DNA of 64,000 nucleotides. Source: Pseudoalteromonas sp. R3 (lineage in GTDB: Bacteria; Pseudomonadota; Gammaproteobacteria; Enterobacterales; Alteromonadaceae). The stretch is taken from contig NZ_CP034835.1 of NCBI RefSeq assembly GCF_004014715.1, positions 1,426,001 to 1,490,000 of the forward strand, read 5' to 3'. Positions 24,919 through 59,901 of this stretch are shown here, in pieces (the first letter of the stretch is position 1; every line of letters begins with the position of its first letter). A program made the position numbers and the translations under genes. The notes beneath the pieces were generated by a model. The model was not told the origin of the DNA. It ran no database searches and was given only the letters and a program-made list of their open reading frames with translations.

Positions 24919-25701
24919 GCGCCGAGTCCAAAGTAACTCATTAACTCCAATAGGTTGGATAAATTTAGAGGTGTTGCATAAATGCGACTCTCATGAGTAA
25001 TATTGGTCGCTTTTAGAGTTTAATATACTAGAGTTGTGTTGCTATATCTGCACAGGAAGGCAGCATAATATATGTAGCTATGTTTTCTTTTTTATATTTT
25101 ATAATTCATTTGTTTTTATTGTGGAATAAATTATATCAACTTGCCCTGATTGAATTCTAAAACTAATTTTCTTAATTAAATGTTCTATTTTGAGGCGAGA
25201 AAATATCGTCGATAACACTGCTCTCGCGTCCAGCTATCGCTGAGGCGCCTACATATATGTAGGCGAGGAAAAATTTGCGAACTTATACCTTAGGTAAAGG
25301 TTCTAAATAAGAAATTGTTAATACCATTAGCGACATATTTGCTCCTTCAAATTGAACAGGTATTAAGTGAAATTGTTATAGATTTAAATTTTCACATAAT
25401 TATTATGCAGGCTTTCCTGAATCATCACCTTGTTTTGTTAATTAATTGTTTTTTTTGATGAGCTTTGTATATCTCAGAGAGCATGCTCTGTAAGCAATTG
25501 AAATTTAATTTGGGGCGGGAGGCGCTAGTAAACATGATAAGACCACTAGCCGCGCTCTTTAATGACTGCGTCTACAGATGTATATAGAAGTGGGTATTGA
25601 TTTAATTAATAGTCGGCTCCAGCCTCTCTGTTATTCTTTGTGGTTAATGAGAATAAAATTTCGCATTCTAATATGCAAAATTTAATGTTTGGTATCGTGT
25701 G
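24919..25701. other. AT-rich gene-free region with a perfect palindrome
   Basis: About 780 bases with no credible open frame on either strand. It contains one perfect 20-bp palindrome at 25246-25265 (arms CGCCTACATA). Otherwise low in GC and without recognisable repeats, tRNA or mobile-element ends. Confidence 0.5.
25246..25265. repeat. Perfect 20-bp palindrome
   Basis: Arms CGCCTACATA and its exact complement with no spacer, in otherwise AT-rich non-coding DNA. It could be an operator for a dimeric regulator; it is not followed by a T tract, so it is a poor terminator. Confidence 0.6.
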
Positions 25702-43775: not shown

Positions 43776-44172
43776 ATGGAACAACAAATCTCTATACTAA
43801 TTGTTGATGACGTAGGCACTGTTCGCAGTTTCTTACATCAAACTCTGATGCATCTGGGGATCGATAATGTTAAAGAAGCATCGACTGCGAAACAATGTAT
43901 TACCGCCTGTGAGGAACGTCACTTTGATATCGTTTTTTTGATATCGTTTTTTAGATATCGAACTACCTGACGGGGATGGAAAGGAGCTAATTGCGGAGCT
44001 TGCCGAGATTAATCCGGATATCAATGTAGTGATGGTGTCAGCACACTCAACAGTTGATAATGTGAAAGATGCAATTGAACGGGGAGCAAAAGGGTTTGTT
44101 GTTAAGCCTTTTTCGCCAAAGAAAATTGCGGCGATGCTAAAGAAGTTTTATCCAAAGCTAGAGTTAGCTTAA
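43776..44172 (+). pseudogene. Single-domain response regulator, frameshifted by a 13-bp net insertion
   Basis: Frame one reads MEQQISILIVDDVGTVRSFL... through HFDIVFL, a typical receiver start with acidic D-D at 10-11. It then stops at TGA 43968-43970. A second frame from 43954 continues DIELPDGDGKELIAELAEINPD...VVKPFSPKKIAAMLKKFY and ends at TAA 44170. The join lies in GATATCGT7-GATATCGT6-A-GATATCG (43926-43960). Deleting the middle 13 bases (43940-43952) restores a 127-residue receiver with phospho-acceptor Asp in FLDIELP and Lys in VVKPF. So the break falls at the phosphorylation site. It may be a dead gene or a slippage-controlled one. Single-domain receivers such as this resemble CheY or Spo0F-like signal relays. 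Confidence 0.85.
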
Positions 44173-59200: not shown

Positions 59201-59324
59201 CGAGCCATATAGAAAGTCAGACGGCGGTGTCGGTGGTGTAACTGGTGAAAATGACGTACAAATCGAAATGCAAACTCGGTTATTGTACATATACAAAAAA
59301 GAAGAGCATGATGAAAAGAACTAA
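56205..59324 (+). CDS. pilY1: Type IV pilus tip adhesin/biogenesis protein PilY1
   Basis: 1039 residues with an N-terminal signal peptide (cleaved near IQA-E20). A von Willebrand factor A-like domain spans about 35-330, with the MIDAS DTSGSM at 43-48 and LMTDGDPTSDSA near 215. A cysteine loop insert follows the MIDAS: RCYEYRRGRFRSIDC (57-71) and RCYKVRNGWYQQSNC (80-94), two copies with identical Cys spacing. The C-terminal PilY1 beta-propeller (about 490-960) has IAGMRRGGNEYYGFDIT, IFGAGYDTN and calcium-binding-like loops DKNDDGKVGSGE and DSDYDGYID. PilY1 tips the pilus, senses surfaces and binds calcium. It is coupled to pilX upstream and overlaps pilE downstream. Confidence 0.95.
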   Translation: MWYRLLGLLSCICVFSIQAEDIELFVKHDISNSEKSRVLVVFDTSGSMAWDVKDGQRCYEYRRGRFRSIDCFDSSQTSKRCYKVRNGWYQQSNCGDSRLKVAQDAITTLVDDNPDFDIGLMRLYSSSGGYVLNGLGTDTTTLKSKIANLPASGSTPLSETLWEAYLYLTGKRVLYGQDKSDRDRSVESNGYYISPFKPDPLAPKRCDTSTNIILMTDGDPTSDSARNTDIYNKYVSTFGSAPSRVSNNYLNSLAKVMRGTPETQVDLYPSTPEELDFARTYTIGFGTGMSNAGKTLLEQTALDGGGEYKHANTASELSEALKATITNIREKSDSFSSPSVSTSSSDLSRSGDSIYYTMFYPETHTRWRGNLKKLKVKGSVIHGMGSSSHAINEEGVIADNVTTYWSQPGSKDGSKVGVGGVNYQLSRQTTRKLYSDYGKGTLMSFDYATALIAAGGDLSKLSTMFSVDNAGLLPDVIDWSRGIDVNDENNNGSTTDRRDTIFGDPLHSRPVTLDYGNGDLRVIVGTNAGFLHMFKDNGDTVTESWAFVPGSLLDILRPQMVRQDDTKLYGMDGPITVYFWDKNDDGKVGSGERVWLIAGMRRGGNEYYGFDITSPDNPKLLWGGPIKGGSAPYEQLAQTWSKPLVTFIKSKPDTPVVIFGAGYDTNKDNALFSDDNVGRGIYIVDIETGKPFWSLTAANGFSGKHSIAADLSTVDSDYDGYIDRIYASDTGGGVWRFDMPGTNPSDRETPWTHFKLADLSGDTDNHKRRLFYRPVVARTYFSKVSTETVNGQTITIRRDIPYEGLLIGSGNRAKPTSTAVQDFLYMIRDENTKTQSFRGDSVPATITSANLLDVTSDPFYSRLDDFDQFVEKEVELGLANGWKLELADGEKAMAAATIVAGVAYYTTFTPASVEINECSITAGRGRLYALHLNYGMQMLDLRSFQTTAEVPDTPRVHYSEHTNEDGSTTIKAQLISPIVTENSDDVIDGKIRLVEPDAAEPYRKSDGGVGGVTGENDVQIEMQTRLLYIYKKEEHDEKN

Positions 59325-59664
59325 TCGTACAGTATTGGGATTCACTCTGATTGAGCTGATGATCACCATCGCAATCCTGGGTATTTTAGCCAGCATTGCT
59401 TACCCCAGTTATTCATTGTATGTGAAGCGTGCAGCCAGAGCTGAAGCTGCATCCACTTTGCTTGATGCTGCGAACAAACAGGAACAGTATTTTGTGGACA
59501 ACCGGCAATATGCCAGCACATTAGCTGAGCTGGGATTGCAAACCACAACGGAGAATGATTATTTTACCCTGACCATAGCACTGGGTGCGAACCTCAATAC
59601 CTTTACAATTACGGCCACGGCATCGGGGGCCCACTTGAGGACGATCCCGATTGTACAACCCTAA
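59308..59664 (+). CDS. pilE: Type IV pilin-like PilE, C-terminus frameshifted
   Basis: The frame starts at ATG 59308 (or 59311) inside the end of pilY1. It has the prepilin leader MKRTNRTVLG then FTLIELMITIAILGILASIAY with Glu +5, and the conserved helix and NKQEQYFVDNRQYASTLAELG. The frame as given ends at 59664 (ASGAHLRTIPIVQP). Adding one G or C in the GGGGGCCC run near 59626-59633 would give ASGGPLEDDPDC and continue as TTLTINNLNI...TADQCWGR to TGA 59732, a normal pilin end of about 140 residues. So a one-base loss in a homopolymer is likely, either a sequence error or a recent mutation. PilE is the last operon gene. The missing part would hold the disulfide Cys pair. Confidence 0.88.
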   Translation: MMKRTNRTVLGFTLIELMITIAILGILASIAYPSYSLYVKRAARAEAASTLLDAANKQEQYFVDNRQYASTLAELGLQTTTENDYFTLTIALGANLNTFTITATASGAHLRTIPIVQP

Positions 59665-59901
59665 CCATCAATAACTTGAATATTCGGGGTAGTACAGGTA
59701 ACTTCACCGCAGATCAATGTTGGGGGCGATGATCACTGCGATCTAGCCAGATGCAGGTCCTGTTTTCATTCTCATGTTGACTCAGATTTAATCACCGTGC
59801 ACTGTGCCTGAATGAGCGCGTTGTGCAAAGCGCATTCAATATGAGTTATTGTACAGAGTTGGCCAATAAGGTTAGCTCAATTTGAAGGGACAAATATGGC
59901 G

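Follow-up and report, generated by a model that had tools for sequence, protein, structure and literature searches.

Is a signalling gene that carries a tandem repeat across its phosphorylation site dead, switchable, or still read through by slippage? The question is raised by a stand-alone CheY-like receiver gene at positions 43776 to 44172, plus strand, of the window (the whole stretch of 64,000 nucleotides that was analysed), in a Pseudoalteromonas genome near P. rubra that consists of two contigs of 4,496,250 and 1,328,532 bases. Recent inactivation of the receiver in this lineage by a 14-base slippage duplication, with a run of six Ts in the assembly being an under-call of seven, is the reading that we consider quite probable, and the evidence for it comes from the repeat itself, from relatives, from a truncated product encoded elsewhere and from the error pattern of the assembly.

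The gene is split by a frame break, and both of its pieces match PF00072 (30.3 and 55.5 bits, the cut-off being 30.2). Its 127-residue orthologue in P. rubra S2599, the closest relative seen, is intact (P0063) and scores 100.5 bits over residues 7 to 117 against the same cut-off, so exceeding it along the domain. The S2599 protein has D11, D12, D56, S84 and K107, whereas in the window these residues are divided over two frames; the signature sites of receivers we take to be an acidic pair, a phospho-acceptor Asp, a Ser/Thr and a Lys. The upstream frame (43776 to 43970, plus strand) gives, in the assembly, a truncated product of 64 residues, with its stop codon at 43968 to 43970. The downstream frame (43954 to 44172, plus strand) holds 72 receiver residues. 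Separate translation of this C-terminal half is ruled against by the earliest possible start codon being codon 26 of the 72. Between the two lies the break site, 43926 to 43960, and the first codon past the break is that of Asp56, which aligns with the motif aspartate (‘MDIVMP’) in a CheY of known structure and is presumably the phospho-acceptor. The initial annotation had put the codon for this Asp at the break, and had claimed that without 13 bases the gene would encode an intact 127-residue receiver; both statements are borne out, with the S2599 gene encoding a receiver of just that length and being 13 bases shorter. The solved structures nearest to the receiver are CheY proteins. The likeness to CheY-like single-domain receivers is in the domain match to PF00072, the window gene differing in being split in two, and identity with chemotaxis CheY is not shown, as the score against the CheY equivalog model is 66.3 bits, below its cut-off of 189.

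At the break, GATATCG occurs three times, starting at 43926, 43940 and 43954, with a period of 14 bases. The first unit, GATATCG-T7, occupies 43926 to 43939 and the second, GATATCG-T6-A, 43940 to 43953, one of the 14 bases differing between them; the third GATATCG, at 43954 to 43960, provides in its GAT the Asp56 codon, and from 43954 the sequence runs GATATCGA (all on the plus strand). Tandem Repeats Finder returned 43923 to 43960 with a period of 14, 2.7 copies and a score of 69, the top of its 22 rows for the 64-kb window, in agreement with the three copies and the T7 and T6-A spacers described at the outset from the letters alone. S2599 has the same flanking bases and one unit fewer, GATATCG-T7-A-GATATCGAA, so that it already possesses two GATATCG sequences, 15 bases apart and each coding D-I, within D-I-V-F-L-D-I-E; the window has one whole copy more. 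The window gene is 13 bases longer than its counterparts in five relatives, S2599 among them. Judged by the sequence, the pattern is beyond chance, S2599 already having two copies and the window apparently having gained a third.

How general is the intact form? The receiver gene was found in all 108 genomes of the genus searched, a survey with one genome per species, and in 106 of the 107 other Pseudoalteromonas genomes the match, in a single stop-free frame, begins no later than residue 4 and reaches at least residue 122. Besides the genome of the window, the sole exception is G017, where the lesion differs and is nearer the gene start: at that locus (L181, G017:C1:3051200-3052000) the orthologous receiver matches in one frame only over residues 35 to 126. 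A search for the duplicated pattern that tolerated one mismatch found it in one of the 108. All 80 loci from named genomes, the best 80 of 133 relatives, are open through the site, though a few are from other genera and there is overlap with the 108-genome set. Comparison with related strains was among the checks first proposed for this locus: the frame has been lost here and the relatives are intact, as in a pseudogene. Relative to five relatives, the substitutions confined to the window number three, all synonymous and all 5′ of the break. Such few and silent changes fit a recent event, and the same would be expected if the gene still works.

A product of the duplication is also encoded elsewhere. 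A search with the 64-residue product against 5.8 billion proteins gave eight matches, of which the best, P0004, has 59 residues and is identical end to end to residues 1 to 59 of the query; it is encoded as a single unique sequence by 13 contigs of up to 639,473 bases. Since these cannot be the 4.5-Mb contig, the repeat copy exists beyond this assembly, and the duplication looks real. P0004 ends FLISFF-stop, which is the outcome of an exact 14-base duplication (second unit with T7, then AG). As its tail fits T7, the second T run of the assembly is probably one T short. The net change of +13 claimed initially thus stands for the assembly, with its 13 bases over five relatives, and does not stand for the true length, which is probably +14, an exact 14-base tandem duplication with one T under-called. 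The 13 contigs are known by protein alone and may not be independent, with few strains, or even this strain re-sequenced, being possible sources. In the protein database search no partner covering the C-terminal half turned up for the 59-residue protein; the closest C-terminal fragments (54 matches) are 92% identical, and therefore from outside this lineage.

The number of frameshifts in the assembly is pertinent to both the missing T and the gained copy. A stretch of 400 kb (G000, C2:1290001-1690000, with the window inside) was compared with the matching part of another genome, G033, using uncurated ORFs that were 100 codons or longer and had identity of at least 60% and coverage of at least 70%. 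Frame changes in G000 break 19 of the 358 matched G033 ORFs, the receiver included. The reverse comparison gave 4 rows of 358, whose coordinates show each to be one of the genes broken in G000 as viewed from G033; breaks specific to G033 thus come to zero. Net change at the 22 junctions is −1 in 17 and −2 in two, with +1, +4 and +13 once each. Runs of three or more equal bases occur within 7 bases of the gap at 19 of the 22, versus about 51% of random places, and runs of four or more near the gap at 12 of 22, versus about 16%, an enrichment that may be partly inflated by gap placement. Among the ORFs broken in G000 are holA, pdxA and gltB as well as lptD (638.6 bits, below the model cut-off of 683), and holA and LptD each have no match in the genome other than their own two halves. 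Both holA and lptD are, we take it, essential in gammaproteobacteria. A true break in an essential single-copy gene is improbable, so sequence errors probably account for many of these frameshifts, though some may be real, and the assembly is probably in need of polishing. With about one ORF in twenty frameshifted over the 400 kb, other ‘broken’ genes in it need checking against relatives. A second split gene in the window itself, at 59308 to 59729, presumably pilin-like by its N-terminus, has lost one base relative to G033. Near C2:1353369-1353480 the five bases ATGCA are repeated in tandem once more, breaking a 501-codon ORF; this is the only other gain of a tandem copy among the 22 junctions.

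Other receivers in the genome are also split. Near residue 55 a count by eye gives three split pairs among 144 matches listed with 150 of 158 candidates scored; S2599 has none among 140 matches listed with 150 of 156 candidates scored. Besides the window gene, the pairs are phoB (C2:3837991-3838328) and a hybrid histidine kinase (C2:3807474-3807796), each one base shorter than in five of five relatives, the missing base lying within a G run or next to one. A single-base shortfall at G runs in both is therefore a signature of error and not of recoding, and recoding across the family at about residue 55 is rejected. A mutator lineage as the source of the indels is unsupported for the two repair genes covered, mutS (an 862-codon open frame) and mutL (631 codons) being intact in G000 and in five relatives.

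An under-call of the T run is favoured because 17 of the 22 junctions are net −1, because phoB and the hybrid kinase are one base short, and because holA and lptD are split. Homopolymer indel errors are described for long-read assemblies in an excerpt of PMC8011154, and the likeness to the present case is in the pattern of error, one-base losses by homopolymers that break conserved genes; errors of the type covered in that excerpt would account for the missing T, though not for the gained repeat copy. The distinction is relevant to the proposal that the insertion is entirely a product of misassembly or base-calling error, the true gene being intact. The 19 broken ORFs of 358, the single-copy holA and lptD among them, lend it some credence, as does the five-base tandem gain, but errors in this assembly do not as a rule add a repeat copy (the net change is −1 or −2 at 19 of 22 junctions), and the same novel tail is present in the truncated product from the 13 other contigs, making this proposal quite unlikely.

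What the duplication would have done can be set out with S2599 as a guide to the ancestor. A conserved stand-alone receiver would have been hit by a single tandem duplication of exactly 14 bases, GATATCGTTTTTTT. An S2599-like ancestor has TTT ahead of its first GATATCG and, 14 bases on, TTT again at the close of the T7 run; via this three-base match the nascent strand may have slipped during replication, with GATATCGTTTTTTT being copied twice. The frame would then shift just 5′ of the Asp56 codon and translation would end after about 59 residues, with the second half of the receiver, including the phosphorylation site, being lost. In the second unit, T6 would be a one-base homopolymer under-call, resulting in the apparent +13 and the 64-residue product. 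Support for a dead gene comes from S2599 having one unit fewer, from the intact frame in 106 of 107 genomes, from the 59-residue product on 13 contigs and from the downstream part having no start before codon 26. Against inactivation by slippage duplication is that the coding sequence beyond the frame break has undergone no further decay; the T6 could also be real in this strain. With slippage-made, lineage-specific pseudogenes in general it shares the gain of a repeat copy, the loss of frame and the intactness of relatives, and there is no structural difference, the probable one-base under-call being what this assembly adds. It would be a clean case of a receiver conserved throughout a genus and lost in one lineage, apparently by a single slippage event.

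The repeats and T runs had also suggested a switch, in which T runs or repeat copies vary in length in the DNA and so turn the gene on and off. Both features are prone to slippage in principle, and there is T6 here as against T7 inferred elsewhere. Both lengths seen or inferred, +13 and +14, are nevertheless out of frame, and the T6/T7 difference, the sole difference in length, resembles the error profile of the assembly. An in-frame variant carrying the duplication was absent from the genus genomes, at one genome per species, and from the protein searches, where what is displayed are representatives of 90%-identity clusters within which such a variant could hide. Of ten proteins longer than 128 residues seven were inspected, and what sets these apart from the 127-residue form lies at the termini, not at the repeat site. 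With the pattern confined to one of 108 genomes, a single unique truncated sequence across all 13 contigs, and lengths with the duplication that are all out of frame (a phase-variable gene would present both on and off lengths), a switch is highly improbable. The other option initially offered, a dead gene, gains from the same facts: a duplication in one of 108 genomes, one identical truncated product on 13 other contigs, and no in-frame length with the duplication turning up in those genomes and protein clusters.

A further possibility is that the gene is a pseudo-pseudogene, with RNA polymerase or ribosomes slipping one base in a T run and so joining the frames in a small share of the product, putatively a receiver lengthened by a few residues ahead of Asp56. 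According to an extract of PMC6260861, bacterial RNA polymerase needs seven or more Ts to slip, and in the inferred allele each T run is T7, just that minimum. As far as extracts of the two papers go, slippage-rescued ‘pseudo-pseudogenes’ are on record (PMC1088944), Citrobacter tssM being another such gene (PMC4256274), and the shared feature is a break by a homopolymer where a one-base slip joins frames; the lack of decay past the break would also be accounted for. The runs in those precedents are, however, longer, nine and eleven as against T7 or less in the window, and the window run is at or under the slippage thresholds given in the parts of PMC1088944 and PMC6260861 concerned. When the 100 bases that start at 43957 were folded as RNA, z was +0.84 and 161 of 200 shuffles folded at least equally well, so that a downstream stimulatory RNA structure is absent by this measure, and programmed frameshifting with a downstream stem gains no support. 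Rescue by slippage is, all told, unlikely. Very unlikely is a stronger version, in which the duplication is maintained, with slippage on the paired T7 runs yielding a small steady fraction of receiver whose strand before the phospho-acceptor is lengthened; if true, a core relay would in this lineage have become a low-dose or altered signal protein.

Elsewhere in the window, a short element at 25158 to 25380 matches, in reversed orientation, the stretch that follows the receiver gene in G033 (L037), with 91% identity over 58 bases and 89% over 81 bases, and yet found no match at the receiver locus of the window itself; from these matches it is possibly a dispersed intergenic repeat.
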